Shown piece after piece: positions 7,200 to 29,167 of a stretch of 64,000 nucleotides of DNA. Source of the stretch: Turneriella parva DSM 21527. Lineage in GTDB: Bacteria > Spirochaetota > Leptospiria > Turneriellales > Turneriellaceae. Location of the stretch: contig NC_018020.1 of the NCBI RefSeq assembly GCF_000266885.1, forward strand, positions 2,728,001-2,792,000, read 5' to 3'. How positions within the stretch are numbered: the stretch's first letter is position 1; the number at the start of each line of letters is the position of its first letter. The notes under the pieces are model-generated. The model had not been told where the DNA came from and did no database searches. It saw only the letters and a program-made list of their open reading frames with translations. The translations under genes and the position numbers were made by a program.

Positions 7200-7251
7200 A
7201 GCTTAGGTTTTGCCTTGGGTTGCTTCGGCAACCCAAGGCAAAACCTAAGCT
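7200..7251. repeat. Perfect 24-bp-arm inverted repeat between polA and tRNA-Leu
   Basis: Arms at 7200-7223 and 7228-7251 are perfectly complementary around a TTCG tetraloop. The arms include AGCTTAGG, TTTTGCC and TTGGGTTGC. The right arm covers the first 3 nt of tRNA-Leu. It probably terminates polA transcription or marks a 3' processing point, but the perfect 24-bp stem and its overlap with the tRNA acceptor are unusual. Confidence 0.7.
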
Positions 7252-7330
7252 CGGGTGGTGGAATTGGTAGACACGTACGCTTGAGGTGCGTATGGAGTAA
7301 TCCGTGGGGGTTCAAGTCCCCCCTCGAGTA
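7249..7330 (+). tRNA. tRNA-Leu(GAG)
   Basis: A cloverleaf can be drawn. The acceptor GCTCGGG pairs with CTCGAGT (two G-U pairs), with discriminator A at 7330. There is a D-arm with GG-TAGACA, an anticodon stem TACGC/GCGTA with loop TTGAGGT (anticodon GAG), a class-II variable arm (GGAGTAATCC) and a T-arm GGGGG-TTCAAGT-CCCCC. CCA is not encoded. It reads CUC/CUU leucine codons. Its 3' end is the left edge of the accessory island. Confidence 0.92.
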
Positions 7331-7419
7331 CATTTCCTTATTTAATCCCCGCACGTCCGGGGCCCTTTTGCTTGCCGCGGGCAGCGGCTTCTGGCTGGCC
7401 CTATGGTGTGCGGCGGGGT
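7331..7419 (+). repeat. 89-bp repeat, copy 1, directly after tRNA-Leu
   Basis: Starts immediately after the tRNA discriminator base with CATTTCCTTATTTAATCCCC and ends GTGTGCGGCGGGGT. It is nearly identical (two mismatches) and in the same orientation to 19892-19980 inside transposase gene B. It contains the hairpin CCCCG-CACGTC-CGGGG followed by CCCTTTT, which could terminate the tRNA transcript, and GCCGC-GGGCA-GCGGC. Its right end coincides with the left end of the IS3 element. Confidence 0.75.
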
Positions 7420-8669: not shown

Positions 8670-9218
8670 CTATGTCTTAGGAGCAGGATAAGGTGTCCGG
8701 TGATTTAGGGGGTCGCTACACCAAGTATTTACATAAGTCTTAACCGGCGGCGGTTTTTGTCGGAGAATCCATGCACTAAGCTCGAAGTTCTCGTCCCATG
8801 TACTCGGCGAGCTATTGGCTTTTGCAGAAGATATATCACGCTTTAAGTTGATTCCAAGTCTTGAACCTTCTGTATACGCCCTTACTTTCCAGAGGCTATA
8901 GGTCGCCATACTCCTGGCCCTTTTAAGCTTACTTAGGGCCAAATAACACCGCTCATATGCCTTTTGCCATCGGTTTGAATAGACGTTCACCCGGTTGGTA
9001 AAGTAGCTGACTTCGTGGAGTATGTAATGTCGCCAAGGTGTGATTTCCGGCGATATTAATGGCAGCTTTCCAATTCGTTCAATCCGATTTGAGTTATAGG
9101 CAGCACATCCTCCCCAGGTGATCAAGATTTTCCGGGGTGCATCCAGAAAGTCATATCGACTGATGCGAATATTGAATAGACTCACAAGGCCGAGGGCTTT
9201 GTACTTTGGGAATTTCAC
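8670..9218 (-). pseudogene. Unknown third gene of transposase module A, 3' end replaced by IS3
   Basis: A 182-codon frame whose ATG overlaps the stop of the HNH-like gene (ATGA), so it is translationally coupled to it. Codons down to ...KTYVNTW belong to the original gene (8721-9218); the last 17 codons are read from IS3 terminal sequence, so the native C-terminus is lost. The protein is basic and Tyr/Trp/Arg-rich (PWRHYILHEVSYFTNRVNVY, RWQKAYERCYLALSKL). No family is recognised. The order transposase, HNH-like, this gene suggests an accessory factor of the module. Confidence 0.6.
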
Positions 9219-9508
9219 TTTGCTATTTTCCGGAGCGTGTATCCCCGTTTTCTTCCCATAGACTTCACTATGTCCAGGGCTAAAGCGAAGATCTCGGTTT
9301 CTAACATCGATCGCTTAACCTTGGCTACGTCCCGGTCCACCAGATATATATTCTCGAAAGCGTTTTGTCCTCCGCGCTCTTTGGGAATGATTAATTCAGC
9401 CCGAGTGCTCTCAGGGGTTAATTCCCGGTTTGTTAGCGGACAGGTGTACTTTTGCTTTTCCAGCAATGCATAGAAATCTTTAGCCGTGAATTTGTAATTC
9501 TCGCTCAT
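9215..9508 (-). CDS. Small HNH-fold-like protein lacking the catalytic His (module A)
   Basis: A 97-residue product coupled by a 4-nt overlap to transposase A upstream and to the next gene downstream. It aligns with the product of 18918-19355: DFYALLEKQKYTCPLTNREL, then PEST, IIPKERGG, FENIYLVD. The layout follows the HNH pattern (Y-x-C-x-L-(T/S)-x-(R)-E-L ... P-x-x-x-GG ... F-x-N-I-x-L-V-D), but the position of the catalytic His before the P-x-x-x-GG loop holds Ile/Leu. Nuclease activity is therefore doubtful; a binding role with the transposase is inferred. Confidence 0.55.
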   Translation of the reverse strand: MSENYKFTAKDFYALLEKQKYTCPLTNRELTPESTRAELIIPKERGGQNAFENIYLVDRDVAKVKRSMLETEIFALALDIVKSMGRKRGYTLRKIAK

Positions 9509-11040
9509 TTCTGTCTCGCTTTCTTTGGGACGTAGGTCTTAGGAATCAGTGTCCGTGCATTCGCGTTAAATTCTTTCAAATTACTCCGATCTAAAACATA
9601 GAGCAGATCAGGCAAAGTCGGCTGTTTCTTACGGATGTCGAATTCGTATTTAAGATTAACAGCCGTAGGGCTTGAGCGATCAATAAGCTCAATAAGATTG
9701 AGGGCAAACCATTTCCGGAGAATTCTATACGACTTCTTGCGATCAATGTCAATTTCATCGAGCATTTCTGACAACGAACACCAGCCTTCACCGGGTAAGT
9801 TTTCCCAAAGCACTGCTGCGATATGTGCGTACTGTTTTTGCTTTGCTCTCTGGAAGTCCTGGGATCCTGGCCAGAACTCAGAGAACTCTTTGAGAGCTGC
9901 TGCGAGTAGGCCTGAGCTGTCCGTTTTTAGGAGAGCTTGGATACGTTGATCTCTGCGATTGCGATAGAGTGGTTGCGATTTGACCTTCCGATCTTCAAGA
10001 GTTAGTGCTTGATAGAAATGTTGAGGGAGACTCTCTGAGATCTTGGAAGTTTTACGGGGATAATTATTCCTCACAAAGCCCACAGACGCGGCTTCGCCGC
10101 GTGATGTGGTTTGCGCGGAAAAATTCCCCAACTCCCCACCACCCGAACCCGCCCCACGCCCCTCTGACCCAGCGCCCACCAGCAACGCCTCCCACCCATA
10201 ATACCTGACGTTACGCCAAAAAGCATACTCATCCAAATACAACTGACTCCACTTCGGCTTGATATACCCATACCCGGATCCAAAGTTATGTTTCAAATTC
10301 CGGTTATGCCCTTCAACGCACTGCGTATTAATTCCGTGGCGCGACCATCTCTCCCTACTAAATCTATGGCGTTTGTCCTTGCTCTTCAAGCTGTGGTTTA
10401 TCATTCTATGATTTTTATTTATGCGATAGTAGAACTTGTACCCTTCATCGGTGAACACCGGGACGTTCTTTGGGATGTATTTATCCAACATCGGGCGCAA
10501 CGTTTCACCCCGGTTGTCGGGCACTGACTGGTAGATTACTGGTCCGTTTTTCCAGGCCAGGGTCTGGACCAGGATTCCTTTTTGCTCCCCGCCTAATTTA
10601 TCAGACATGTATATAGAGGCCGTTAAACCCCCATGTTTCCAGCGTTTTCTGCCTCCATTCGCCCTGGACGAAGTGGAGTACAACGCACAAGTATCAACCT
10701 GCGGAATGGCTTTCCCAGCAATAATTTTAGACAGGTCCTTATCATCTTCTCTTGGAAAATTCACGTTGCCTAAATTCTTTTCCAGGTCCTGGTAAATCCG
10801 CGCATTGAGCTTCGGCAAATGTTCTGCTGCCAACAACTGCAGTCGGCGTTTAATTAATGTGGCGGTGTTCTTTGCAACACCCAGGCGCTTCTGGATTTCT
10901 GATGCAGTTAAAACTTTCGGGTATCGCTCCAGACTTTCATTAAGGGCCCAGCCAAACATCCACAGCGGAATTTTTAGCCCAGCCAATGGTGTTCCTACGT
11001 ACCTGGAGCCTTGGTAGTGGCAGGTTGGGCAGCGGATCAC
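9505..11040 (-). CDS. IS1595/ISXO2-like DDE transposase with C-terminal extension (module A)
   Basis: 511 residues from GTG 11040. Domains: second half of a zinc ribbon (CPTCHYQG-SRYVGTPL), an HTH region (TASEIQKRLGVAKNTATLIKRR) and an ISXO2-type DDE core (VDTCALYS..., PVFTDEGYK, QCVEGHNRNLKHN, SQLYLDEYAFWRN). A low-complexity linker at about 285-325 includes a GCGGC-TTC-GCCGC hairpin at DNA level, followed by a roughly 180-residue C-terminal part with winged-helix-like segments. Homologous codons continue upstream to 11223 and encode the first zinc knuckle (KTCPTC), but no ATG/GTG/TTG is available there; an in-frame ATG at 11226 is followed at once by TGA. The gene may be 5'-decayed. Confidence 0.75.
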   Translation of the reverse strand: MIRCPTCHYQGSRYVGTPLAGLKIPLWMFGWALNESLERYPKVLTASEIQKRLGVAKNTATLIKRRLQLLAAEHLPKLNARIYQDLEKNLGNVNFPREDDKDLSKIIAGKAIPQVDTCALYSTSSRANGGRKRWKHGGLTASIYMSDKLGGEQKGILVQTLAWKNGPVIYQSVPDNRGETLRPMLDKYIPKNVPVFTDEGYKFYYRINKNHRMINHSLKSKDKRHRFSRERWSRHGINTQCVEGHNRNLKHNFGSGYGYIKPKWSQLYLDEYAFWRNVRYYGWEALLVGAGSEGRGAGSGGGELGNFSAQTTSRGEAASVGFVRNNYPRKTSKISESLPQHFYQALTLEDRKVKSQPLYRNRRDQRIQALLKTDSSGLLAAALKEFSEFWPGSQDFQRAKQKQYAHIAAVLWENLPGEGWCSLSEMLDEIDIDRKKSYRILRKWFALNLIELIDRSSPTAVNLKYEFDIRKKQPTLPDLLYVLDRSNLKEFNANARTLIPKTYVPKKARQK

Positions 11041-11229: not shown

Positions 11230-11318
11230 CTCGTAGATTCCCGCTCGTAGGCTAGTGGCTCGTACAGGTGCCGTGATGGAGTAGACATTTTTCTTTGGCC
11301 TACGCGACATGCTCGTAG
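11230..11318 (-). repeat. Short direct repeats CTACGAG downstream of the integrase
   Basis: On the minus strand CTACGAG occurs at 11312-11318, 11244-11250 and 11230-11236, with a variant GTACGAG at 11259-11265. The three in the integrase-transposase gap are spaced 14-15 bp start to start; the fourth lies in the last integrase codons. Spaced heptamers beside a tyrosine recombinase gene could be arm-type recombinase sites or part of attP, or could be chance. Confidence 0.4.
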
Positions 11319-12241
11319 ACTTTGAGCACTGTCTCGGCATTCGGGCGCTTCTTGACGTAAAAGTCCACCAAGGTCTGGACTTGGCTATGCCCCATGTACT
11401 GAGCCAACGTGTATAGGTCTATGCCTTTGCTCAGTGCGTTCGTTGCGAAAGTATGGCGAAAGATGTGGAGTCTGGCCTTTTCCAAGAGTTCAGCCCCCGC
11501 AGCTCCTGCAGCTACTGCCTTATGGGCTGCAACTTTCAACATTTTGAGTACTCCATGTCGATCGAGTCTATTGCCGCGGCGCGTCTCAAAAAGGAGTGAT
11601 TCCCCTTTAAAAACTGATGAAATGCGGTGGTAGAGGTCTTCAGGAAGGTAGACATCTCGCATCTTGTGCCCTTTTCCCAGTACCGAGCCGCGGTAGCACA
11701 AACCCTGCTTGGTAAGCCTGGCAGACAAAGTAAGCGCCTCAGAAATTCGCAATGCCGTTATCTGTAGAAGTTCGATAATGAGTGATCCCCTCGCCGTAGC
11801 GAAGCGCTTTAGGACTTCGATCTCCTCAATCGTCAGGACATCTGTTTCGGTTTTCGAGCGCGGTATCTTGATTGCTGGTTCGCGCAAGAGGTTCGTTACT
11901 GCGAATATATCAATGGCTGATGCATTCTGCATCTCCATGCTCTTGATGATAAGTCGCCGATTGGCTGCGACAAATAAGTTGAACTTGGCGGCCGATACCT
12001 GGTGGTTGCGTACCTTCTCGCGCAGGTCATCAACAGCCTTGCGAAAACTGAAGGCATCAACAGGTAGATTGCGGATTTCACAATACCGCAGAAAATCTTG
12101 AATCTGCCAGCGGTAGTTGCGCGGCAGGTTTAGCACTGCTATCAACTCGTTGGTTCTCTCAGCATGATTAGGTACTTGGATAGCGCTCATCGCAATAGAA
12201 TAGGGGCGAATCTCGAAACTGTCAAGCTCCAGAACTGGCAT
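11300..12241 (-). CDS. Tyrosine recombinase/integrase
   Basis: A 313-residue phage-integrase-family protein. An N-terminal SAM-like core-binding region occupies about 25-115. The catalytic domain has Arg165 (ITALRISEAL), Lys190, the His259-x-x-Arg262-His box (LHIFRHTFAT), His285 (MGHSQ) and the nucleophile Tyr295 (VDFYVKKRP), all in place. An alternative start at Met18 (12190) is possible. It probably mediates excision and integration of the island, with tRNA-Leu as a candidate target. Transposase A, the HNH-like gene and the third gene follow on the same strand and may be co-transcribed. Confidence 0.9.
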   Translation of the reverse strand: MPVLELDSFEIRPYSIAMSAIQVPNHAERTNELIAVLNLPRNYRWQIQDFLRYCEIRNLPVDAFSFRKAVDDLREKVRNHQVSAAKFNLFVAANRRLIIKSMEMQNASAIDIFAVTNLLREPAIKIPRSKTETDVLTIEEIEVLKRFATARGSLIIELLQITALRISEALTLSARLTKQGLCYRGSVLGKGHKMRDVYLPEDLYHRISSVFKGESLLFETRRGNRLDRHGVLKMLKVAAHKAVAAGAAGAELLEKARLHIFRHTFATNALSKGIDLYTLAQYMGHSQVQTLVDFYVKKRPNAETVLKVYEHVA

Positions 12242-12360: not shown

Positions 12361-12425
12361 AATTCAACACACGGGTTTCGATACTTCTGCATCTTGCGTA
12401 GCACGTGCGCACCAGGGAGGGAGCA

Positions 12426-14678
12426 ATGAACATCAATCCGAGCGGGCCACTGAGCCAAGCTGAGATCGATGAACTTCTGGATGGGACCATTAAGCACGAG
12501 TACCCGATATCTGAGAATGACGAGCGTCTAGAGCATAAGCAGAAGAAAGCATTCGCACGATTGTTCCGCGTCTCTTCCAAGACAGGATTTTATCCAACGA
12601 ATCTTGACTACCTCGAGGAAATGTTACAATACCAAGCGCAGAAGTTTATTCTAATGAGCGCGTCACAAAAAGCATCATCAAGCATAACTGCATATGAATC
12701 GTTGGCGCATGATTTTCTGTTCTATAATCCCGATGCATTGACTGCAGCAAGAAAGATCAACCAGGCATTAGATATCAAAATCCGGCAACGTTTAAACCTG
12801 TCACAGTTTATACCAGGGTATGTTCAGATAATTCAGCGAGAGAAGCTGAAAAAGCGTGATGCAGAGATACTCTTGATAGTCTTCATGCTGAAATTGAACA
12901 ACTATGAAATAAGTCTCGGTCAGCTGGCAGATATATACGCTCTGGGATTCAAGAAGCGAATTGAATTCAAAAAGTATATGCGGTCAACGCATTCTCCGAT
13001 TGGCAAGAAGCTGCTATATATGCGGCAGAATTCAAACGATGAGGCAGCGGTTCTGATTCACGGTGATGTGTTTAATATGATTCTGGGAGCGAGCCTTCTG
13101 GAAGAAGAGTACATGGCTTATGGTATTCTGGGGAGCAGGCCAATCGCGTGGGAGAGTGTTGTTCTCCCTGAAGAAGAAAAGGAACGAATCTATTCGCTAG
13201 TCTGCCACCATACAGCTACGAGAAAGCGCCTCCAGAAATGGGGCTATGATCGTGTTGCGAGCTATGGGCTCGCCACGACTATTCTATTTCAGGGGAAGAG
13301 TGGTACGGGAAAGACGATGTTCGCGCATGCGCTCGCTACGCGACTTCAGAAGAAAGTGATCACGGCAGATGTGAATCAGGTATTGGATAGGCTTGATTCT
13401 GCGCCTGCATTGCGATCGTTATTGATTCAGGCGAGAGTACAGGATGCTATTCTCTTTTTAGATGAATGCGAAAGATTATTAGGGAGCAGCCACTTCAGGG
13501 ATAGCAAGATTACAGATGTGCTTAAGGCCATAGAGGAGTTTGACGGCATCGTGATACTTGCCACGAACAAGCCTAATGACATGGATGTGGCGATGCGCAG
13601 GCGCATCTTACATACGCTGACATTCGAAGTACCAGGCGCGATTGCACGTGAGCAAATATGGCGTGCGCATATTTCGCGGAAAACACGTCTAATGGGTCAC
13701 ATCAACTTTCGCTACCTGGCTGAAAAATATGAGCTTACTGGAGGATTAATCAAAAACGCCGTTTTAATCGCAGCAGCCATGGCGGTAGACAGAGCGCCAC
13801 AAAAACCAGCAATTACGCAATCTGATTTAGAAAAAGCGGCAGAACAGCAGCGTCGAGCAGGTCACGAAGTGCTGTCAGGTGAGGATATCGCGTACCATGA
13901 GAACTATGACCTTCGAGCTCTTTCTTATGACACAGACGTGACGCGACAAATCAACGTTCTCCTGACAGCTTGTCGCCAGCGAGACGAAATCTGGCGAAAA
14001 TGGGGCTTTGCAGACAAGTTCGCGCACGGTACAGGTCTATGCGCCTTGTTTAACGGACCTTCGGGTACAGGCAAAACGGCAGCAGCGTACGGCATTGCCG
14101 CCGAACTGGGGCTGCCTGTGCGGACCATAGAATTCGCCAGTTTACTCAGTTTGTGGCATGGCGACACAGAGCATAATGTACTCCGAATGTTTCAGAAGCT
14201 CAAGGGCAAATCCGAGGTGGTAGTCTTTGACGAGTGTGAATCTCTGCTCACAGTTCGTGACGGACAGGCCTCGCGTACTCAGTCGAATATCATGAATATT
14301 TTCCTGAGGCACCTCGAGACTTTTGACGGAATTCTCATCATGACAACCAATCTGAAAGAAGAACTAGATACGGCGCTTGAAAGACGTATCCTGTTCCGTA
14401 TTGATTTCAAAGAACCAAATGCCAAAATTCGGGAACAAATCTGGAAGAATACCGTCCCGTCTAAGGCTCCAGTTTCTGGGGCGATCGATTGGCGCAGGTT
14501 TGCGCAGGAGTACCAGTTTACTGGCGGGCAGATTAAGAACTGCTTGATATCAGCTATGTACCTTGCTCTCTCTGATGCGGCATCTGAAATCACGGAGCGT
14601 CACCTGCGGCAAGCCTGTACGCAGCAAGCCATAGGCTTCGATCAACGTAAGCAGATCGGTTTCTCTGCTGTTTCTTAG
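12426..14678 (+). CDS. Tandem AAA+ ATPase with FliM-like N-terminal peptide
   Basis: A 750-residue protein. ATG 12426 is chosen because AGGGAGG precedes it; a GC-poor upstream extension lacks a ribosome-binding site. Residues 9-20 (LSQAEIDELLDG) match the CheY-P-docking EIDALL peptide of FliM/FliY. A helical region (20-270) leads to AAA-1 (Walker A GKSGTGKT 290-297, Walker B ILFLDE 342-347, an Arg-rich sensor region MRRRILHTL) and AAA-2 (GPSGTGKT 544-551, VVFDE 599-603, LERRILFRIDF). Both ATP sites look intact. The domain style is that of Cdc48/FtsH-like classic AAA unfoldases, including ATPases of phage-derived machines. Function is unknown; the neighbours suggest defence. Confidence 0.75.
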   Translation: MNINPSGPLSQAEIDELLDGTIKHEYPISENDERLEHKQKKAFARLFRVSSKTGFYPTNLDYLEEMLQYQAQKFILMSASQKASSSITAYESLAHDFLFYNPDALTAARKINQALDIKIRQRLNLSQFIPGYVQIIQREKLKKRDAEILLIVFMLKLNNYEISLGQLADIYALGFKKRIEFKKYMRSTHSPIGKKLLYMRQNSNDEAAVLIHGDVFNMILGASLLEEEYMAYGILGSRPIAWESVVLPEEEKERIYSLVCHHTATRKRLQKWGYDRVASYGLATTILFQGKSGTGKTMFAHALATRLQKKVITADVNQVLDRLDSAPALRSLLIQARVQDAILFLDECERLLGSSHFRDSKITDVLKAIEEFDGIVILATNKPNDMDVAMRRRILHTLTFEVPGAIAREQIWRAHISRKTRLMGHINFRYLAEKYELTGGLIKNAVLIAAAMAVDRAPQKPAITQSDLEKAAEQQRRAGHEVLSGEDIAYHENYDLRALSYDTDVTRQINVLLTACRQRDEIWRKWGFADKFAHGTGLCALFNGPSGTGKTAAAYGIAAELGLPVRTIEFASLLSLWHGDTEHNVLRMFQKLKGKSEVVVFDECESLLTVRDGQASRTQSNIMNIFLRHLETFDGILIMTTNLKEELDTALERRILFRIDFKEPNAKIREQIWKNTVPSKAPVSGAIDWRRFAQEYQFTGGQIKNCLISAMYLALSDAASEITERHLRQACTQQAIGFDQRKQIGFSAVS

Positions 14679-14706
14679 AACATGCGTCCAAAAAATATCC
14701 TGTCAT

Positions 14707-15243
14707 ATGGTTCGTGAAAACATCTTCATTGTCGCAGGTGAAAATTCTGCGCTCGATGAGCTTTACCCAGCTCTTAAGCATATGCACGGGCTTCATGTAG
14801 ACATCCAAGAATTACGAAACGTTCTTTCAGGCCTCTATCATAGACAGGAACTCTGCAAAATCTTCAGTCAGCACACAGTGGTAACAAACAGAAGTTTGAG
14901 CATTGAGTGGGTGGCCGATGAAGCTGCGTATCTTGTAACGGACAGATTGAGAATTCTTGCGCCACTGCACCTTCGAATACTCATGCATCTTAGGCAGGAA
15001 GCCGAGGGTACTCAGACTATTTTCAGCAAGAAGCTCATCAAACACATACTCCGGGAAACCATGGAGTTTGCATCGACCGAAGTTGAGGACGTGTATGATC
15101 AAAGTGATGCTGAACTAGTCTATATTTATTGCCAATTGCACCACTTACTCGATCGCAGGCTGGATCTGGATACGAACAGTATCGCGGAGGTGTCAGCTCT
15201 CATAGAAGAGGCGCACTTCGCATATATTCTCGAAAATTTCTAG
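14707..15243 (+). CDS. Unknown 178-residue protein between AAA+ and PLD-helicase genes
   Basis: Starts 28 bp after the AAA+ stop in the same direction and is probably co-transcribed with it. The sequence is alpha-helical with Leu/His-rich segments (LAPLHLRILMHLRQEAEG, VYIYCQLHHLLDRRLDLD) and ends AHFAYILENF. There is no signal peptide, membrane helix or recognised motif. The position suggests a partner or adaptor of the ATPase. No clear Shine-Dalgarno. Real gene because the codon pattern matches its neighbours and the frame fills the gap. Confidence 0.6.
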   Translation: MVRENIFIVAGENSALDELYPALKHMHGLHVDIQELRNVLSGLYHRQELCKIFSQHTVVTNRSLSIEWVADEAAYLVTDRLRILAPLHLRILMHLRQEAEGTQTIFSKKLIKHILRETMEFASTEVEDVYDQSDAELVYIYCQLHHLLDRRLDLDTNSIAEVSALIEEAHFAYILENF

Positions 15244-15462
15244 TCATTCAGTAAGATACTTATATCGTCGAAGTCCGGCCGTGGACTGGCGTCCCAGAAG
15301 AATTCAGGCTTAAAGTACCACCATCCAATAGGCGACCCTCGAGTGGGCACCGGCATGAGATTTGCAATTGACCAGATACTGGCAGCATGGGTTCTTTATC
15401 CGGTAGTTAACATTAACTCACTGGGGTGATCATACGAATCACGCTGTGATAAAAGAAGACCA
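15244..15462 (+). promoter_or_regulatory. 219-bp gap with a possible operator before the PLD-helicase gene
   Basis: No gene is visible. It holds GTTAACATTAAC and, just before the next gene, the pattern GTGAT-N7-ATCAC-N3-GTGAT (15426-15450), a dyad plus a third half-site that ends 12 nt before the start codon, where a repressor could act. It suggests the PLD-helicase gene has its own control. Confidence 0.35.
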
Positions 15463-18183
15463 ATGGACGAGATTGTACCAAACTCCCAGCGATTCTTCGG
15501 TTCTGGAATGGCAAAGGCCGCCGTAATAAGTTGCTTAAAAGATGCCAAGATTGTAAGAATCGCGACCGCCTTTTTCGAGCCTACCGGATGGGCACTGCTT
15601 GCCGAAATTCTCGAGCAGAAGACCGTGCGTCTGCTTGTGGGGCGCGAAGAGGGGGCTGCAGATCGCGTGGGAGATCTTCTACGGGAATTTTTCGAAGAGC
15701 TTCACGCTGGTGGTTTGAAAGAGCACCCAACGGTTCTGAAACAACTACTTACCGCACTTCGTGGTGGCCGGCTAATCATTAAGTTATCTACTACCAAGCG
15801 ACCACAATCTTCAATAGACGTTAGGTATTTGTACCACCATGCCAAGTTGTACATGGCAGATAATCTGGGTGTTGTAGTTACCTCGGCTAACTTCACCAGA
15901 AACGGGTTGGAAATCAGTCGGGAGGCCGGCTACTTGGTTTCAGAAAAGAATGATGTCCAATACTTCGTAGATCAGTTTGACGATTATTTCGACAAAGCAG
16001 AATCTCTAACAGCTGAATTTATTCAGGCCCTAGAAGAGATACTGGAGCTTCGCTCTCCGAATGAAGTGTATTGCCGAGCACTCCTGGAAATCTACGGTAT
16101 GCCCGATGATAGTTTTTCGGGAAACTTACCCAGTCCTGCAATGTACCAGAAGCCAATAATCTCGCGCTTAGTCAGGGGAGTAACTGATTTCGGAGGAGCG
16201 TTTCTTGTAGCATCAACGGGGCTAGGCAAGACGATAATTGCTGCTCACACAGTTGCTATTCTGCGAGCTAGGGACCTGGTACACGCGGTCATGGTTTTTG
16301 CGCCGGCTGGTTTGAAAGACATGTGGTCGAAGGCTATGCGTTCAGCACGAGTCTCCAGTCGCGAATTCTCTTACCAGATCCTATCCATGGATGACTGGAA
16401 GAGATACCGGCAAGCGCTATTGTTGGATGATGAGCTCAAGAACAATCTGAACGGGGTGTTGCTTATCCTGGACGAAAGCCATCACATGCGCAATGATGAA
16501 GACAGTAAGAAAGATTCAAGATTGAGACACAGGCGCATTGATTCTGCGGTAAAAAAGGGGGCCCAGGTACTATTGCTGACTGCAACTCCCTATAGCCGCG
16601 ATGTTCAAGATATAAACAATCAACTGAAACTGTTGCCTCGCCATCTGGTTAAAGGAGAATTCTTTGAAACCAGAAAGAAATGGAACATAAATACCCCCAA
16701 AGATCTCGCTGAGCTTGCGCCGTGTACAGTATTGACAGCGCCGACGGTTATTAAACACTTTAGCCATACCGACATAAATGGCCGTCGCTATGTCGAATTT
16801 GGGAATGATCGCCGTCTTTTTTTTCCTGAAAAGATTCACCTGAAGACCATCAAATATGCCAATGCCTATAACAGCTTTCTGAAAGAACTAAAGCAGAGTA
16901 ATCTACTACGCAAGCGGATAATCAGTGAGTACGAAAGTGATCTATTTGCCGATGCTGGAAATTCCGGGAAAATAGACTATCTTTTTGAAGCGCGGCTTCT
17001 CCATCAATTCTGCTCGTCGGCTGCACAAGTAAAGGTCACACTCGATAAGCTTAGCAGAGAAGGCGGCTATGACAAGATGCGATTCGAAGCGCAGGAACAG
17101 CTTACCGTGCTTGCCGCTGCTCTATTACATCGCATCAACAAGATACCGGACGAAAAGATTTCAAGATTGACGGAAATCGTTCGTGAGCATGCCGGTGAAA
17201 AAATGGTGATCTTTTGCATATACAAGGAGACTGCAAAGGAACTGACAAAGGCTCTATCCGAAGTATTTCCCGCGTTAGTGATACGCTCAACGGTAGATTT
17301 AGATCCAGATGATCTAGATAACGTCTTGGATTTTTTTGCCCCGATAGCGAACGATAAAATCCAGCCAAATCAAGAAACGGGCGAATTTTATCAGAAAATA
17401 AAAGAAAATCGTATAGATATTTTGATCGCCTCAGAGGCAATATCGGAAGGGTTTAACCTGCAGGACGCCAGAATACTTATCAACTATGATCTACCATGGT
17501 CTATTCTTCAACTGGCCCAGCGCATGGGCAGGCTTATGCGCCCATGGCATGAACCAAGGGAACTACTGATTTTCAATTTTCTTCCCGATACTATGTATGA
17601 TGCGGAGCTCAGGCACGGCGAAACCTGGCTGAAGAGATTAGATAAACGTAACAAAGAGCACCAGTCCTTCGCGAATCTGCCTGTACTATTCCCGCCGGGT
17701 AATGAAGCAGTTAACCTCGAATCACTGAGCAATGCGCTGCAACATTTCGAATCCGCTGACTTGGAACTTGACGAAGCCATGAGCTTCATTGGGAATGCGA
17801 TGCAAGTAGAAACGAGTAGCGTGCTCGACGATCTTGCGCAAATGCCCCAAGCTGAGCACGAACGTATTCGGCGGATTCGCACTGGCTTTCGCAGCAGGGT
17901 AGTCCGATCAGCAGAAGATCCTTCTTTGTTCCTTCTCATTTCGGTTAGAAGTTCCATTTTCCCAGCTTTATTCAGGCCAGATGGGTCATTCTTTCTCCCT
18001 CCGCAGGAAATCAGTAGGCCTCTTGAGATTCTGCGAAAGAAGCGGTTCGAACCAATCATGGAGAATAACTTGGACCCTGCTTTTATGGACGATTTTCAAG
18101 AAAGGTGCTTAAAAGTGTGGCTTCGTGAATTTGGTGAAGCCCGTGACAAGGTACGAATAGTTTGTGCCCTTTTCTTCGCTTAA
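15463..18183 (+). CDS. PLD-nuclease and SF2-helicase fusion protein
   Basis: A 906-residue protein. N-terminal phospholipase-D-like domain: a single HxK motif His126-Ala-Lys128 with the following SANFTRNGLE block at about 145, as in HKD nucleases. A superfamily-2 helicase follows: motif I STGLGKT (251-257), motif II DESH (337-340), motif III TATP (373-376), and a C-terminal RecA lobe with SEAISEGFNLQ and motif VI QRMGRLMRP (686-694). A roughly 170-residue C-terminal region is not recognised. Such PLD-helicase fusions occur in defence islands and are thought to degrade or remodel foreign DNA. All core motifs appear intact. The start has a weak AGAAG site. Confidence 0.82.
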   Translation: MDEIVPNSQRFFGSGMAKAAVISCLKDAKIVRIATAFFEPTGWALLAEILEQKTVRLLVGREEGAADRVGDLLREFFEELHAGGLKEHPTVLKQLLTALRGGRLIIKLSTTKRPQSSIDVRYLYHHAKLYMADNLGVVVTSANFTRNGLEISREAGYLVSEKNDVQYFVDQFDDYFDKAESLTAEFIQALEEILELRSPNEVYCRALLEIYGMPDDSFSGNLPSPAMYQKPIISRLVRGVTDFGGAFLVASTGLGKTIIAAHTVAILRARDLVHAVMVFAPAGLKDMWSKAMRSARVSSREFSYQILSMDDWKRYRQALLLDDELKNNLNGVLLILDESHHMRNDEDSKKDSRLRHRRIDSAVKKGAQVLLLTATPYSRDVQDINNQLKLLPRHLVKGEFFETRKKWNINTPKDLAELAPCTVLTAPTVIKHFSHTDINGRRYVEFGNDRRLFFPEKIHLKTIKYANAYNSFLKELKQSNLLRKRIISEYESDLFADAGNSGKIDYLFEARLLHQFCSSAAQVKVTLDKLSREGGYDKMRFEAQEQLTVLAAALLHRINKIPDEKISRLTEIVREHAGEKMVIFCIYKETAKELTKALSEVFPALVIRSTVDLDPDDLDNVLDFFAPIANDKIQPNQETGEFYQKIKENRIDILIASEAISEGFNLQDARILINYDLPWSILQLAQRMGRLMRPWHEPRELLIFNFLPDTMYDAELRHGETWLKRLDKRNKEHQSFANLPVLFPPGNEAVNLESLSNALQHFESADLELDEAMSFIGNAMQVETSSVLDDLAQMPQAEHERIRRIRTGFRSRVVRSAEDPSLFLLISVRSSIFPALFRPDGSFFLPPQEISRPLEILRKKRFEPIMENNLDPAFMDDFQERCLKVWLREFGEARDKVRIVCALFFA

Positions 18184-18295
18184 GGAAGCCGTTACGAACC
18201 AGAGAGATATCGAAGTGGGTCAATTTCAGGCTGTGGTGGCCCGCAGTTATATGTATTCGTGTCGTGACTCAATCTGAGTGAGACCACAGAAATTG

Positions 18296-18322
18296 TTGCC
18301 AATAGGCACACATTGTCATAAT
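18296..18322 (+). promoter_or_regulatory. Candidate promoter of the toxin-antitoxin pair
   Basis: TTGCCA (18296-18301), a 15-bp spacer and CATAAT (18317-18322), with TATA directly after. The proposed GTG start lies about 10 nt further, so the mRNA would be nearly leaderless. The short spacing is a weakness. Confidence 0.35.
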
Positions 18323-18331
18323 ATAGGCACG

Positions 18332-18607
18332 GTGAAGGATATTCGATGGAATACTGAGAAGAATCAGAAACTTATCGATGAGCGCGGTATCTCGTTTGAG
18401 AACATCGTGGATTATTTAGAGCGAGGTGAGATTCTTGAAGTTTTTGATCACCCAAATCAGGACAAGTACAAAGCGCAAAAGGTGTTCAGCATTCAGATTA
18501 CCGATTATGTCTATTTGGTTCCATTTGTTGAAACGGAATCGGAAATTTTCCTGAAGACGATCATTCCTAGCAGGCAGGCGACTAAAAAGCACAGGGGCGG
18601 AAAATAG
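18332..18607 (+). CDS. BrnT-family toxin
   Basis: A 91-residue protein starting (GTG) MKDIRWNTEKNQKLIDERGI, followed by FENIVDYLERGEILEVFDHP, QDKYKAQKVFSIQITDYVYL and a final KTIIPSRQATKKHRG. The BrnT pattern is a W-(D/N)-x-x-K-x-x-x-N/K-x-x-x-(R/H)GI-x-F opening and a terminal (I/T)-I-S/P-x-R-x-A. BrnT proteins are RelE-like ribonuclease toxins. An in-frame ATG at 18278 would add 18 unlikely residues and would place the promoter inside the gene. The antitoxin starts 1 bp later. Confidence 0.75.
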   Translation: MKDIRWNTEKNQKLIDERGISFENIVDYLERGEILEVFDHPNQDKYKAQKVFSIQITDYVYLVPFVETESEIFLKTIIPSRQATKKHRGGK

Positions 18608-18608
18608 C

Positions 18609-18896
18609 ATGAAAAAGAGATTGAACTTAGATCATGAAGAAAACGAAATTCTTTCGGCTTATGAGTCCGGGAATTACCGAAGCTTACCTGATCAGAGCAA
18701 GCTGATAAAGAAATACACAAGTTACGCACGAAGTGCTAGTAAGAAAGACAAACGTATCAATATCAGACTAGCTGGAAATGACCTCGAACATTTGCAGAAG
18801 ATGGCCGTACAAGAAGGATTACCATATCAGACTCTAGTTGCAAGTCTGATACACAAATATGTCACAGGGCGCCTTGTCGAAAAACGCGGAGCTTGA
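18609..18896 (+). CDS. BrnA/CopG-type antitoxin
   Basis: A 95-residue protein. The C-terminal part (INIRLAGNDLEHLQKMAVQE, then YQTLVASLIHKYVTGRL) is a ribbon-helix-helix DNA-binding domain of the CopG/BrnA kind. The N-terminal part (ENEILSAYESGNYRSLPDQS) is the toxin-binding tail usual for this subgroup. It should neutralise the BrnT-like toxin and autorepress. A fragment with the same N-terminal part lies at 32299-32469. Confidence 0.8.
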   Translation: MKKRLNLDHEENEILSAYESGNYRSLPDQSKLIKKYTSYARSASKKDKRINIRLAGNDLEHLQKMAVQEGLPYQTLVASLIHKYVTGRLVEKRGA

Positions 18897-18917: not shown

Positions 18918-19355
18918 CTATTTCGCTTTGTTAATATTTCGCAATTCTTCTGTCGTGCATTGCCCCCAGGAATTTCTTCGCTTTGGTTGCTTTCTGTCCT
19001 TGCTTTGCTGAGACCGATTAAAATTCGAAATCCTATCTAGGGCTTGATGCCAGGCCGCTTTATGCCGCGGTACTGTCGCGGGTGAAAGCCGTTTCTTGGT
19101 TGCCGAGTACCTTGCAATACTCAAGCAGATAGAGCGAATTTCTGCGATTGAGTATCTACGCGCCAACGTAGCCAGGGTACTGTCAACCAGGCAGATATTA
19201 TCGAACTGTTTTATACCACCTTGGTGCATTGGCACCTTCAAGACAATCGACGTGCTCTCAGGTTGCAGTTCCCGACCAGATAAAAAGCACCGGTAATCTT
19301 GGATTTCCCTGAGTAGTTTATAGAAATCTCCGGCTGTCATTTTCCATCGTTTCAT
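18918..19355 (-). CDS. HNH-fold-like protein lacking the catalytic His (module B)
   Basis: A 145-residue paralogue of the 9215-9508 product. Its ATG overlaps the stop of transposase B (ATGA). Shared pattern: T-A-x-DFY-x-LL, Y-x-C-x-L, REL-x-PEST, P-x-x-x-GG, F-x-N-I-x-LVD. As in module A, the residue expected to be the HNH catalytic His is hydrophobic (STSIVLKVP). It has an extra basic C-terminal tail of about 50 residues (HKAAWHQALDRISNFNRSQQ, then KDRKQPKRR), perhaps for nucleic-acid binding. No homologue of the third gene of module A follows; the convergent antitoxin gene ends 21 bp away. Confidence 0.55.
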   Translation of the reverse strand: MKRWKMTAGDFYKLLREIQDYRCFLSGRELQPESTSIVLKVPMHQGGIKQFDNICLVDSTLATLARRYSIAEIRSICLSIARYSATKKRLSPATVPRHKAAWHQALDRISNFNRSQQSKDRKQPKRRNSWGQCTTEELRNINKAK

Positions 19356-21133
19356 TTGACGCTCGCTATCTGGTTTTCCCAGATTCTGGCGAAACGATGC
19401 CCCATTTCTTTGGGCATCACGTACAAAATGGGTACCAGCACAGTACCAATGCGCCTGATATCATAGGATTTTCCATGCTTCGATCTTGTGTCCCTATTGA
19501 GACTCCGCATCTCTATGAGTCCGTGCCCTTGCAGTACTGGCAGAATGCGAAAAAACGAGCGCGTAGATATCTCGAGTTGGTCGGCAAGCTCGCGAAACTC
19601 TAGGTACGATTCCTGAGGTAGGGCCTCCCATACCTTTTCAGCCAAGACTTCGAATGCACGCTGCTTACGCCGTTGATCCTTTGTTGGCCTCGACTCGATC
19701 CAGCATGACCGTGTGTCCTGAAGTTTCTGCAGCCGAGCCCGCAGTAAAGGATTAGGCTCTGCCTCCAACTTGCTTTGAGCCGCTTCTTGCTTAGCTTTTG
19801 AGTTGAGTTCTTGAATCTCTATTAGCGTGAGAGCCTCAAATTCCCACTGACGGACTTGGTCACTGATTCGATAGGACGCCTGAGCCGACATCATTTCCTT
19901 ATTTAATCCCCGCACGGCCGGGGCCCTTTCGCTTGCCGCGGGCAGCGGCTTCTGGCTGGCCCTATGGTGTGCGGCGGGGTTGGTCCGGTTTTCCTGGGCT
20001 CTGCCCTGGTACTTGTGAGGTACTGCCTCTTTCTTTTGCTCTATCAGTTCGAGTATATCGAAGTGCTTGAGGTTTCTGATGAAGGCAAATTCATTGAGGT
20101 ATAGTTGGCTGTATTTTGGGTTAATCCATCTATAGGCTGTGAAGCTTTGCTTAACCAGTGCATTTAGTCCTTCCGCGACATTACAGTTTACTCCTTTCTT
20201 TGACCATCTGTTTCTTGCGAACTTATACCTCTTGTCCTTACTCCTTGCATTGTGGTTCACCATTCTGTGGTTCTTTCCCGTGAATGCTCTGTATCCCATG
20301 TCCGTAAATATCGGAGTATTATGGGGCATGTACTTTCTTATCAACGGGTTCAGTGTATTCATCTTCTGGTCACTGATACTGTCGAAAAATGCTGGTCCCT
20401 GCCTAATGCCAAAGGTGTTTACCAGGGTTCCCATCTGTTCACCGCCCAGCGATTGCGACCTGTAAATACTGGACGTCTGGCCCTTTCTCTTATATCTCTT
20501 TCTGCCCTTATTTGCCCTTTGTGAGCAACTATAGAGGACTACTGTATCCGCCTGTGGTATCGGTACTTCTCTTGATAATTCTGATAGGTCTGCTTCCGTA
20601 TCTTTTGGTAGATCAAACCCTTCAAATGTTTGGGCCAGGACTTCATACAGCCGTTTCTGCATCTGTTCTATATGAGTACTGGCGAATACCTGTATTCTAC
20701 GCTTTAACCTTAATGCGGATTCAGTGGTTATTCCCAGTCTTCTCTGTATCTGAGCTGTCGTCACTACATTCGGATGCTGTATTACCATTTCACGTAATAC
20801 CAGGCCAAACATCCATCTACCTAGTTTCAAATGGTGAAGGGGTGTGCCTACCAACCTTGACTGCTGCTTATGACAATCGGGACAACGTAGCATTAAGTCC
20901 CGCTTTCCGTCTACTTGGGTTAACTTCTTTCCACAGCACTCCTTAGGGTAAAAGACGTTTAATAGTTGATCTGTCAGTTCTGTGTAAAGCTCTGATTCAG
21001 CTATGGGGACAGACTTCTTCGCCGTTTGCGGGGATTCCGTAGGGAAGATCTCGAGTACATTTAACCCTGGCGCCGCAATCTGCGGCGGCAGGTTCGACAA
21101 CCGGGGCCTCCGGTCATTTCTGCAAGTCGACAT
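19352..21133 (-). CDS. IS1595/ISXO2-like DDE transposase with C-terminal extension (module B)
   Basis: A 593-residue protein from ATG 21133 (TTG at 21157 is an alternative). Zinc-ribbon remnant KECCG...LRCPDCHKQQSRLVGTPL, HTH (TTAQIQRRLGITTESALRLK), DDE core (ADTVVLYSCSQRANKGRKRY, PIFTDMGYR, CNVAEGLNALVKQ, SQLYLNEFAFIRN). The linker at about residues 385-415 is encoded by an inserted 89-bp repeat also found behind tRNA-Leu, followed by a roughly 190-residue C-terminal part homologous to that of transposase A (EALTLIEIQEL ... SYLEFRELADQLEISTRSFF). The DDE residues look intact. It is coupled to the HNH-like gene and divergent from hsdM. The plus-strand frames with hydrophobic translations over this gene are shadows. 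Confidence 0.8.
   Translation of the reverse strand: MSTCRNDRRPRLSNLPPQIAAPGLNVLEIFPTESPQTAKKSVPIAESELYTELTDQLLNVFYPKECCGKKLTQVDGKRDLMLRCPDCHKQQSRLVGTPLHHLKLGRWMFGLVLREMVIQHPNVVTTAQIQRRLGITTESALRLKRRIQVFASTHIEQMQKRLYEVLAQTFEGFDLPKDTEADLSELSREVPIPQADTVVLYSCSQRANKGRKRYKRKGQTSSIYRSQSLGGEQMGTLVNTFGIRQGPAFFDSISDQKMNTLNPLIRKYMPHNTPIFTDMGYRAFTGKNHRMVNHNARSKDKRYKFARNRWSKKGVNCNVAEGLNALVKQSFTAYRWINPKYSQLYLNEFAFIRNLKHFDILELIEQKKEAVPHKYQGRAQENRTNPAAHHRASQKPLPAASERAPAVRGLNKEMMSAQASYRISDQVRQWEFEALTLIEIQELNSKAKQEAAQSKLEAEPNPLLRARLQKLQDTRSCWIESRPTKDQRRKQRAFEVLAEKVWEALPQESYLEFRELADQLEISTRSFFRILPVLQGHGLIEMRSLNRDTRSKHGKSYDIRRIGTVLVPILYVMPKEMGHRFARIWENQIASVK
19892..19980 (+). repeat. 89-bp repeat, copy 2, inside transposase B
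   Basis: Same orientation as 7331-7419 and differing at two positions (…CACGGCC… for …CACGTCC…, CTTTCGC for CTTTTGC). On the minus strand it is read in frame as part of the linker between the DDE core and the C-terminal domain ([20 protein letters not shown]). The match stops exactly where the IS3 element begins in copy 1. Confidence 0.75.
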
Positions 21134-21185
21134 TAGCCACTCTGCTTGACTGAACAATCAGCAATTATGATTTCCTCCCATCACC

Positions 21186-22937
21186 ATGCCGACCGCGAAG
21201 AAGAAGACTGCAGCCTCGAAATCGGCTAAGGCCAGCACCCCCAAGGGGAAATCCCCCTCTGTAGCATCTGCTAAAACGGTCGCGAAGGCCGGTAAGGCAG
21301 GCAATCAAGCGGTCGGCAAGCCGACCCAGTCGGCCAATCTCGGCTTTGAAGCAACACTCTTTAAAGCCGCCGACAAGCTGCGCAACAATATGGATGCGGC
21401 GGAGTACAAGCATGTTGTGCTCGGGCTGATCTTTCTCAAGTATATTTCTGACGCGTTTCAAGAGAAGCATGACCAGCTTGTGGCTGAGCAGGCGCAGGGG
21501 GCTGACCCTGAAGATCGCGACGAGTACAAGGCCGACAATATCTTCTGGGTGCCGAAAGAGGCGCGGTGGTCGTTCATACAGGCGAAGGCGAAGATGCCAG
21601 AGATTGGCAAGCTGCTCGACGATGCGATGGATGCGATTGAGCATGACAACGAATCGCTCAAGGGCGTGTTGCCGAAGAACTATGCGCGCCCGGCGCTCGA
21701 CAAGCAGCGGCTCGGCGAGCTGATCGACCTCATTGCCACGATTGGCCTTGGTCGCAAAGAGAATAAGTCGAAGGACATTCTCGGCCGGGTGTATGAATAC
21801 TTTCTGTCAGAGTTTGCCAGCGCAGAGGGCAAGAAGGGCGGCCAGTTCTATACGCCGCGCTGTGTGGTGCAGACGCTGGTGACGATGCTCGCGCCGTACA
21901 AAGGGCGTGTCTATGACCCGTGCTGTGGTTCGGGCGGCATGTTCGTGCAGAGTGAAAAGTTCATCGAAGAACATGGCGGCAAGCTGGGTGACATTTCGGT
22001 CTATGGTCAGGAGTCGAACTCGACCACGTGGCGGCTCGCCAAGATGAACCTCGCGATTCGCGGCATCGACTCGAACCTCGGGCAGCAGTGGGCTGATACG
22101 TTTCGCAATGACCAGCACAAAGACCTCAAGGCAGACTATGTGCTGGCAAACCCGCCGTTCAATGATTCTGACTGGGGTGGCGAACACCTGCGCGAAGATG
22201 TGCGCTGGCAATACGGCACACCGCCGTCGGGCAATGCTAACTTTGCCTGGGTGCAGCATTTCATTCATCACCTGTCGCCGACGGGTCAGGCAGGCTTTGT
22301 GCTCGCGAATGGTTCGATGAGCTCGCAGTCATCGGGCGAAGGCGAGATTCGCAAGGCCATCGTCGAAGCCGACTTGGTGGATTGCATGGTTGCCCTGCCA
22401 GGGCAGCTGTTCTATTCGACGCAGATTCCTGTGTGCCTATGGTTTCTGACACGCGACAAGCGCGGCACTTCGACTGCGCTCAGTGACCGCAAGTATCGTG
22501 ACAGGCGAAACGAGGTGCTGTTCATCGATGCCCGCAAGATGGGCGCGATGATCGATCGGGCGCACCGAGAGCTGACGGATGCAGATATTGAGAAGATTGC
22601 AGGCACGTATCACGCATGGCGTGGCGATACTTCGGCTTCCCCTCGACTCCGCTCGGGGAGCGCCGAAGGCCGGTTGCTGAGCGGAGCCGAAGCACCGGCA
22701 AAGTATGCGGATGTACCCGGTTTCTGCAAGAGTGCGACACTGGATGAAATACGCGAACACAACTACGTGCTGACGCCGGGACGCTATGTTGGCGCTGAGG
22801 ATGTCGAAGAGGATGATGAAGCCTTTGAAGACAAGATGCAACGGCTGACGCAGCAACTCTATGCGCAGATGGCAGAGGGTGAAAAACTGGATACTGTCAT
22901 AAAGAAGAATCTGAAGGAGCTTGGATTTGTTGGCTGA
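21186..22937 (+). CDS. hsdM: Type I restriction-modification N6-adenine methyltransferase
   Basis: A 583-residue HsdM. Residues 1-55 form a Lys/Ala/Ser/Pro-rich tail ([19 protein letters not shown]) absent from ordinary HsdM. Then come the HsdM N-terminal helices ([20 protein letters not shown]), the SAM-binding motif [10 protein letters not shown] (244-253) and catalytic NPPF (322-325). An in-frame palindromic element encodes about residues 482-503. It methylates the target sites set by HsdS. There is no clear Shine-Dalgarno; the start context ACCATGCCGACCGC is also found at hsdR. It is followed by hsdS with a short overlap. Confidence 0.92.
22630..22692 (+). repeat. Palindromic element inserted in frame in hsdM
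   Basis: CTTCGGC (22630-22636) pairs with GCCGAAG at 22662-22668 and again at 22686-22692. The inner stem is TCCCC (22638-22642) / GGGGA (22655-22659), and GACTCCGCTC / GAGCGGAGCC add alternative pairing. It is translated as [20 protein letters not shown], a low-complexity stretch unlike the rest of HsdM. It resembles palindromic elements that invade coding genes in other bacteria. Confidence 0.6.
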
Positions 22938-24108
22938 GACAACAAACACTGTTAAGCTGGATGATTTTGCAACTTTTCGGTACGGGAAGATGCCAGATAA
23001 GCAACTGCTGACTGCCACTGGATATCCCGTATTCTCAGGTTATCGGATCGTTGGATACTACCCAGATTGGAATACTGACAAGGGTGAAATCATTGTCGTT
23101 GCACGTGGGGTTGGCGGCACAGGCGACGTAAAGCTAACCAAACACAAATGTTGGCTTACAAACTTAAGTATCGCAATAACTCTCGACAGACAAGTTTGCA
23201 TTCCGGAATACTTTTATTATGCATTCAAGCAAGATACGCTACGCTACCTTGATTCAGGTACATCAATTTCTCAGATTACTATAGATGACCTCCGGAGACT
23301 TCAACTAAGACTCCCACCCCTCGCCGAACAACGCGCCATCGCCCACATTCTCGGCACACTCGACGATAAGGTCGAGCTCAACCGCAAGATGAACGCAACG
23401 CTCGAAGCGATGGCGCGGGCGCTGTTCAAATCATGGTTCGTCGATTTCGACCCCGTGCGCAAGAAGCAGGCGGGGCAACCGACGGGGTTGCCGTCTGAGA
23501 TTGATGCGCTGTTTCCGGGGGAGTTTGAGGATTCGGCGTTGGGGCAAATTCCGAAGGGGTGGAGGGTTGGGAAGTTGGGGGAATGTTCAGACTTGAATTG
23601 GGGAGACACCAATACTACTAAAAGTGCGTACACCAAGACAGGCTACCCTGCTTACAGCGCTAAAGGGCAAGATGGTTTTTTGCCGTACTTCGATTTTGAC
23701 AGAACGGGAATCGTCGTCAGCGCGATTGGGAACGGTTCGGGTCAGACAATACTTGCATACGGTAAATGGTCTTGCATCAAGAACACCATGGTTTTCTGGG
23801 CAACAGATTCGAATATTTCAACTGAATATCTTTATTATTCAACGCTTGGCGTGGACAAGTGGCCGCGCCGCGGCTCGGCGCAACCATTCATATCTCAAGC
23901 CGACGCTCGCAATATGAAACTCATATTGCCCAATAATCCACTGGGAGCCAGATTTGGTGAAATAGTTGGCCATTACCTTAAAAGAGCCAACGCATTGAAA
24001 GGTGAAATTACTACCTTGGCCGAGCTCCGCGACACTCTTCTCCCCAAGCTCATCTCGGGCGAGTTGCGGGTGAAGGATGCGGAGAGGTTTGTGGGGGGCG
24101 TGGTGTGA
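22927..24108 (+). CDS. hsdS: Type I restriction-modification specificity subunit
   Basis: About 393 residues with two target-recognition domains: TRD1 ([11 protein letters not shown]... [13 protein letters not shown]) and TRD2 ([11 protein letters not shown]... [13 protein letters not shown]). They are joined by a conserved helix [20 protein letters not shown], ending with the second helix ([20 protein letters not shown]). The start is one of three in-frame TTG codons (22921, 22927, 22930) overlapping the hsdM end; 22927 sits best, 8 nt after AGGAG. It reads the bipartite DNA sequence for methylation and cleavage. Its GTGA stop overlaps the next start, so it is coupled to it. Confidence 0.9.
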
Positions 24109-25304
24109 CTGTCGAAGAGTTTAATGAGTTCTTCAAGTCGTTGAATCCCACGATAAGCCGGGTGGGCGAAACCTCTCTTATGCACTTTGCCCATATTGAT
24201 AATTTTGGTGAATACCTCAAACGCGAAGCGGACTTTTGGCGACCGTACGTCAATGGCGAGGTCTCTTATATTGCGAATCGGTATGCTCAGCTTCATAATG
24301 CATTTGCAGACCTTGCAAATCAGCTCGCCACAAAACAATACGATGCCGCTCGGGCCAACTTACGCTCGATCTTGGATGAGATACGTGCCGCACCGGTAAA
24401 CGTTGTTCAGTCGGACTCGGTCTTGGGCAAACTGATTGCAGCAGAATATGCAGAGAATTGGCAGGTAGCCAGCGGTATGTACGCCTATTTTGCCAGGAAG
24501 ATTGATCGAAATCTTTTGAGCAATTTTGATATGTTCCTGGGCGTACTAAAGGCTCATTGGTTTCGTGATGGCTCAAGGGCAATTGATGCCACTGCGACTA
24601 GTGTCGTGGGTAAGCTTGAAAACCAAGTTAAGTCATATGACGAGACATTCAGGGCAATGTTCGCAAGGGCAGAGGGCCAAATTGATGATTACAAGGCTAG
24701 AAACCAAGAGAAGGCCCAAGCATTTGATCAAACAGCTTCTGAAAGATTTTCTGCCTTCGATGCGCACTTCAGAGAGCAGAATGATAGGTTTGAGAATCTA
24801 AGTAAGACCTACGAAGAATACCTTCGTCTAAAGGGACCGGCCAGGTATTGGAGCGAATTAGCCAAAAGCTATGAAAGCAAGGGGTACAATTGGCGCAATT
24901 GGGCAGCGGCTATTAGTGGGGTATTTATCGGGCTTCTGGTTGCAATGCTCTACAATCCACCGGTGCTGTATGAGCTTACGCAGGAGTTCTGGACGAGCAA
25001 GAATATTAAGGGCACGATCATTTCTGCCATTGTCGTTTCAACATTTGCCTATGCGATACAATTTACGGTAAAGTTGGCACTTAGCTCGTTTCATTTGTCC
25101 CGCGATGCGAAAGAAAGGGCTCAACTGACCTACTTCTACCTCGCGATGCTGAAGAATGGCGCGCTTCAAGAATCAGAAAGAGGTGTCGTTATGCAATCTT
25201 TGTTCAGTCGTTCTGATACCGGGTTACTCAAGAATGATGCAGGGCCGACAATGCCAGCAAATGTCATGGAGACCTTGAGGCCGAATAAGCAAGGGCATCC
25301 CTGA
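24105..25304 (+). CDS. Membrane coiled-coil protein in the hsd locus (DUF6161-like)
   Basis: A 399-residue protein starting at GTG 24105, 4 nt inside hsdS. An N-terminal helical domain is followed by a heptad-rich coiled coil at about 165-265 (QVKSYDETFRAMFARAEGQI, DQTASERFSAFDAHFREQND). Two membrane helices follow at about 278-298 (AAISGVFIGLLVAMLY) and 315-335 (GTIISAIVVSTFAYAIQFTV). It resembles the DUF6161 family seen in restriction and phage islands; that name is from memory and unproven. A membrane-tethered sensor or effector attached to the RM locus is an inference. Confidence 0.6.
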   Translation: MTVEEFNEFFKSLNPTISRVGETSLMHFAHIDNFGEYLKREADFWRPYVNGEVSYIANRYAQLHNAFADLANQLATKQYDAARANLRSILDEIRAAPVNVVQSDSVLGKLIAAEYAENWQVASGMYAYFARKIDRNLLSNFDMFLGVLKAHWFRDGSRAIDATATSVVGKLENQVKSYDETFRAMFARAEGQIDDYKARNQEKAQAFDQTASERFSAFDAHFREQNDRFENLSKTYEEYLRLKGPARYWSELAKSYESKGYNWRNWAAAISGVFIGLLVAMLYNPPVLYELTQEFWTSKNIKGTIISAIVVSTFAYAIQFTVKLALSSFHLSRDAKERAQLTYFYLAMLKNGALQESERGVVMQSLFSRSDTGLLKNDAGPTMPANVMETLRPNKQGHP

Positions 25305-29153: not shown

Positions 29154-29167
29154 GGCCTCAACCGACC

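Follow-up and report, generated by a model that had tools for sequence, protein, structure and literature searches.

A PLD nuclease-helicase on a mobile segment of the Turneriella parva chromosome, most likely a stand-alone restriction-type enzyme and not part of a three-gene defense system

Introduction

Three kinds of described systems are relevant to the locus analyzed here. SauUSI shows that one polypeptide combining a PLD nuclease, an SF2 ATPase and a recognition domain suffices as a restriction enzyme: it dimerizes via the nuclease, uses ATP to translocate, and cuts DNA (PMC7913695). The Pbe/CxC systems include an HKD-SF2 fusion, which is the effector, together with a fast-evolving small protein and an ATPase (PMC10853773). 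In the type-2 BREX-related systems an HKD-helicase effector is found within a multi-gene system (PMC12839542).

A 64,000-nucleotide stretch of the Turneriella parva chromosome (the window) includes three consecutive genes that an initial annotation considered a candidate three-gene defense locus. They code for a tandem AAA+ ATPase (gene 1), a 178-amino acid orphan protein (gene 2), and a protein in which a PLD (HKD) nuclease is fused with an SF2/Swi2-Snf2 helicase (gene 3, the PLD-helicase). The results described below indicate that the three are probably cargo genes brought together by chance on a mobile segment of about 12.6 kb, with the PLD-helicase most likely acting alone as an ATP-dependent restriction-type nuclease. 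A three-gene system that looked plausible but is unsupported thus leaves the list of candidates, and a single-gene candidate that can be tested takes its place.

Results and Discussion

Organization of the locus and its mobile setting

The three co-directional ORFs are real, and their coordinates as well as the 28-nt distance between genes 1 and 2 agree with those first proposed (Table 1). The ATG start of gene 1 is located downstream of a good ribosome-binding site, GGGAGGGAGCA, and an in-frame GTG upstream, at position 12405, is a possible alternative start. A longer gap of 219 nt separates gene 2 from gene 3. Scans of the locus for promoters and terminators gave no signal clearly above chance. 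The genes had also been described as A+T-richer than their surroundings, which proved correct: the GC3 of genes 1 to 3 and of the BrnT gene is 0.48-0.50 versus 0.63-0.67 in the flanking chromosomal genes. This low GC3 and the single direction common to these four genes suggest that they may have arrived together.

Table 1. Coordinates of the features of the locus within the window
Feature	Position	Strand	Evidence or remarks
tRNA-Leu	7249-7331		
89-nt repeat, left copy	7331..7419		Abuts the tRNA-Leu 3' end
Tyrosine recombinase (integrase)	11300..12241	-	Pfam Phage_integrase 1.2e-17; divergent from the ATPase gene
Gene 1, tandem AAA+ ATPase, 750 aa	12426..14678	+	ORF, Pfam AAA
Gene 2, 178-aa orphan protein	14707..15243	+	ORF, codon usage
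Gene 3, PLD (HKD) nuclease-SF2/Swi2-Snf2 helicase fusion, 906 aa	15463..18183	+	Pfam PLDc_2, ResIII, Helicase_C
BrnT-type toxin	18278..18607	+	Pfam BrnT_toxin 40 bits
CopG/BrnA-type antitoxin	18609..18896	+	Pfam CopG_antitoxin 4.6e-05, under the curated cut-off; resembles the BrnA-type ORF in L041
89-nt repeat, right copy (98% identical)	19892..19980		In frame within the linker of the transposase ORF 19352-21157
Type I RM HsdM	21186-22937		Outside the 12.6-kb segment, beyond the right repeat
Type I RM restriction subunit	29120-32299		Outside the 12.6-kb segment, beyond the right repeat

Genes 1 to 3 and the BrnT/BrnA pair are included in a 12.6-kb segment bounded by two copies of an 89-nt repeat, of which there are exactly two in the whole T. 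parva genome. The left copy can be considered ancestral chromosomal DNA because in the sister genome G003, too, tRNA-Leu is directly followed by the repeat. The segment further includes the integrase, a transposase, and, as judged from the ORFs, an IS3-type element. This organization agrees with a segment that was inserted, by integration or another presumed mechanism, and the mobile setting originally suggested for the locus holds. An integrase, a toxin-antitoxin pair, and a type I RM system had been named as neighbors; all three are present, but the RM system is located outside the repeat-bounded segment.

The PLD-helicase and related proteins

The nuclease domain of the PLD-helicase encompasses approximately residues 1-180 and includes the motifs H126xK128x4D133 and S141xN143. 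It is followed by the motor, at approximately residues 226-710, with the motifs STGLGKT (251-257), DESH (337-340), and QRMGR (686-690), and by about 190 C-terminal amino acids that matched no Pfam family. An alignment with 16 homologues showed that H126, K128, D133, S141, and N143 are invariant, and so are the SF2 motifs (Walker A, DESH, and QRxGR). The Pfam matches and the alignment thus bear out the HxK PLD domain joined to an SF2 helicase that had been read from the sequence, as they do the two intact AAA modules of gene 1.

PLD-helicase genes were found in 22 of the 393 Spirochaetota genomes searched including T. parva, i.e., in 21 of the other 392. They define a family conserved over the full length of the protein. 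Its members are single genes whose neighborhoods differ widely, and most are surrounded by ordinary genes of the chromosome instead of obvious defense islands. A truncated fragment in the genome G010 (L138) suggests that the gene can decay. Searches of viral contigs with the helicase sequence and with the helicase alignment gave no match. The closest full-length relative (57% identity) is preceded at a distance of 1.2 kb by an RNA-ligase-family gene, and a reverse transcriptase of a group II intron is found downstream of it (L033, 4655-9395). On a Tolypothrix plasmid a serine/threonine kinase gene and a separate PLD-domain gene precede a distant relative, all in one direction (L005, 1635-9655).

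The best PADLOC model for gene 3 was C3a139 (HKD+Snf2), which was matched by all 16 homologues as well. The next PADLOC matches were helicases of DISARM, BREX, Dpd, and Hma, and none of these models was matched well enough for membership. Although C3a139 is described as having the same two domains, gene 3 scored only 83 bits over this 948-position model, which by score places it in a different orthologous group. Likewise, the single-gene anti-phage protein PLD_Helicase (NF042964) combines a PLD domain and an SF2 helicase in one chain, but gene 3 reached 81 bits versus a curated cut-off of 1100 and belongs to a separate family. With respect to DISARM, gene 3 matches the helicase domains of DrmD (67 bits) and DrmA (40 bits) and there is a partial PLD match to DrmC, while DrmB was not among the matches listed for the nine proteins scanned. 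The HKD-helicase of type-2 BREX-related systems is accompanied by DUF499, an N6-MTase, and DUF3780; gene 3, in contrast, is not accompanied by any recurrent partner across the 26 homologous loci compared, and Pfam scans of the adjacent genes detected neither DUF499 nor DUF3780. The HKD-SF2 nuclease-helicases of Spirochaetota are a well-defined family that lies outside the named PLD-helicase models.

The described enzyme that gene 3 resembles most in layout is SauUSI: both have an N-terminal PLD nuclease, an SF2 translocase, and a C-terminal region in about 900 amino acids encoded by one gene. The nuclease motif is HxKx4E in SauUSI and HxKx4D in gene 3, and gene 3 lacks a target-recognition domain recognizable by Pfam; the likeness is one of layout and motifs. 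SauUSI is a type IV restriction enzyme that includes a coupler and a C-terminal target-recognition domain and cleaves in dependence on modified cytosine. The layout of gene 3, its conserved catalytic residues, and its stand-alone occurrence make the mode of action of SauUSI, or of other single-chain HKD-SF2 restriction proteins, the best guess. Two PLD-helicase chains would pair via their single-HKD nuclease domains to form one active site, the SF2 motor would use ATP to move along DNA, the C-terminal region would sense the target, either a mark or a structure of the invader, and cleavage of the DNA would follow. Should the helicase alone turn out to restrict the DNA of phages or plasmids, Spirochaetota genomes would contain a new SauUSI-like family of enzymes.

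The defense role of the PLD-helicase is itself a prediction. A function in DNA repair or recombination instead would be in keeping with the neighborhoods of many orthologues, which consist of ordinary genes of the chromosome and are in part syntenic between members of a genus (L038, L040, L042, and L044), and with the resemblance of the motor domain to RapA and XPB as well. We consider such a function improbable: the very patchy distribution (22/393), the truncated copy in G010, and the mobile segment fit an accessory gene better, and the nearest annotated families (C3a139, DrmD, BrxHI, and PLD_Helicase) are restriction or defense effectors. The link between PLD-helicase fusions and defense made in the initial annotation holds up.

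Distribution of the three genes

A conserved three-gene system would be expected to recur, and absence of co-occurrence outside this genome, which had been named beforehand as refuting the proposal, is what was found. Among the 393 Spirochaetota genomes, those positive for the ATPase (G000, G065, and G170) and the 22 positive for the helicase overlap in T. parva alone. Neither the ATPase nor the 178-amino acid gene was present in the flanks of any other helicase locus examined, and none of 80 ATPase loci obtained in a GTDB-wide scan of 84,980 species included gene 2 or gene 3. Useful flanks were available for four other ATPase loci. An all-against-all comparison of the neighbors in 26 loci identified the helicase as the sole gene common to all; the other genes shared by helicase loci were accounted for by synteny within a genus, scattered pairs, and one BrnA-type antitoxin. 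Relatives of the helicase located on plasmids (Tolypothrix and Picosynechococcus) had no annotated AAA+ neighbor. A three-gene system defined by co-occurrence was consequently rejected: the relatives of the three genes travel separately in other genomes, so the trio is most likely not a new three-gene defense system.

Since close orthologues of the ATPase are few, a partnership that arose recently and is confined to this lineage can still be envisaged. One rival reading is a recent but true Pbe-like system in which the AAA+ motor and the 178-amino acid protein sense infection or restrain the nuclease-helicase. The common strand, the short gaps, and the shared low GC3 agree with the latter idea, as does the existence in Pbe/CxC of the recipe itself, an HKD-SF2 fusion with a fast-evolving small protein and an ATPase (PMC10853773). 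PbeABCD/CxC-ABC and the T. parva trio are alike in having these three components together. However, gene 1 is a classical AAA+ protein with a p97-like fold and not a CxC ABC ATPase, no ABC or SMC family being among its best 25 Pfam matches; gene 3 shares the architecture of PbeA but scored only 29 and 21 bits with the PbeA models; and no DndE family was matched by Pfam for gene 2, the BrnT/BrnA pair, or the integrase or transposase neighbors. In addition, the 219-nt gap preceding gene 3 speaks against tight coupling. Together with the lack of co-occurrence in the phylum and in the GTDB-wide loci, these differences make a recent Pbe-like system quite unlikely. A newly assembled defense operon, in which the HKD-SF2 translocating nuclease would be under the control of a Cdc48-like two-ring unfoldase and of a fast-evolving orphan protein as the sensor, appears very unlikely.

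The AAA+ ATPase and the 178-amino acid protein

Gene 1 includes a helical N-terminal region (residues 1-235) followed by two AAA modules, and its match to Pfam AAA (136 bits) covers two stretches. Both Walker A motifs, GKSGTGKT and GPSGTGKT, are intact, and so are the Walker B and arginine-finger regions (Pfam and alignment). An AlphaFold2 model generated from 30 sequences had a mean pLDDT of 79.7 and could be superimposed on p97, Cdc48, and Rix7 with VIA-align Z values of 24-25 over 476-492 residues (rmsd 5.4-6.5). Judged by this model, gene 1 codes for a two-ring Cdc48/p97/Rix7-like AAA+ protein in which both ATPase sites are apparently intact, from which a role in unfolding or remodeling of proteins is the natural inference. 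The likeness to Cdc48/p97/VCP and Rix7/NVL is that of the two-ring AAA+ fold, with Z of about 25 over both modules, but the N-terminal region of gene 1 is unmatched and the identity is about 22%.

Close orthologues of the ATPase are scarce, with only those of G170 (38%) and G065 (32%), besides its own genome, among the 393 Spirochaetota. The closest relatives in the GTDB-wide scan (L053-L055) showed 33-35% identity in the best segments. Single-sequence scans of genome contigs and of viral contigs gave no match, and a search of the viral contigs with the ATPase alignment gave one weak match (L141).

Gene 2 is probably a real gene, since its codon score is clearly highest in its own frame. Its product is probably helical, and a single-sequence model had a pLDDT of 39 and could not be interpreted. 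No family from Pfam, PADLOC, or NCBIfam was found above cut-off, no match was obtained in PDB or among plasmids or phages, and the 393 Spirochaetota genomes included no convincing homologue. Weak matches in G093, G319, G229, G232, and G274 (E values 6e-4 to 5e-3) were rejected as homologues: all covered the query only in part at 23-33% identity, two included internal stop codons, and two were located within an ORF of more than 2300 amino acids. Going by the 28-nt spacing alone, the 178-amino acid protein may serve the AAA+ protein as a private adaptor or be its substrate.

This spacing is also the starting point for viewing genes 1 and 2 as a two-gene module comparable to those of IetA-type AAA proteins, in which an unfoldase and an adaptor or toxin-like substrate would function independently of the helicase. 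IetA is the best-scoring defense model for the ATPase (140 bits), and the AAA modules of gene 1, IetA, and the AAA ATPases of eCIS type belong to the same broad clade with the motif GG-x-IKN. Gene 1 nevertheless remained far below the IetA equivalog cut-off of NCBIfam (128 versus 510 bits), and the adjacent genes scanned with Pfam included no protease family that could represent the subtilisin-like partner IetS, nor any eCIS genes. A small orphan ORF of 189 amino acids also follows the ATPase orthologue of G065 (L050, 11043-11612); it has neither a Pfam family nor blastp similarity to the 178-amino acid protein, and the orthologue of G170 has no such small neighbor. A two-gene module is thus a possibility, though a doubtful one. 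In the reading that we prefer, that of a chance neighborhood, the AAA+ protein would be independent cargo, perhaps together with gene 2, and would act as a Cdc48-like two-ring remodeling or unfolding motor. The more distant relatives of the ATPase include AAA proteins encoded near eCIS genes, one of which (L003) adjoins an eCIS_core gene.

Other genes of the region

A BrnT/BrnA-type pair directly adjoins the PLD-helicase orthologue of the genome G178 (L041, 6522-7044), possibly by coincidence, and it is found on the opposite side of the helicase gene from the arrangement in T. parva.

Two ISXO2/IS1595-like transposases, at 9215-11040 and 18918-21157 (both on the - strand), resemble each other in the C-terminal part, whereas the linker that each includes is variable. 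Each also has an overlap of a few bases with a small ORF (97 and 145 amino acids); these two ORFs look alike by eye, and one has a weak HNH_5 match. A search with the second transposase gave 13 matches within the T. parva genome, and in G001 the corresponding tRNA-Leu is immediately followed by a relative.

The type I RM region includes two further ORFs on the + strand (24105-25304 and 27723-29153), one of which matches PADLOC AbiZ (90 bits) and the other the PDC-S01 candidates (180 bits). They are separated by an IS481 transposase (26220-27275).
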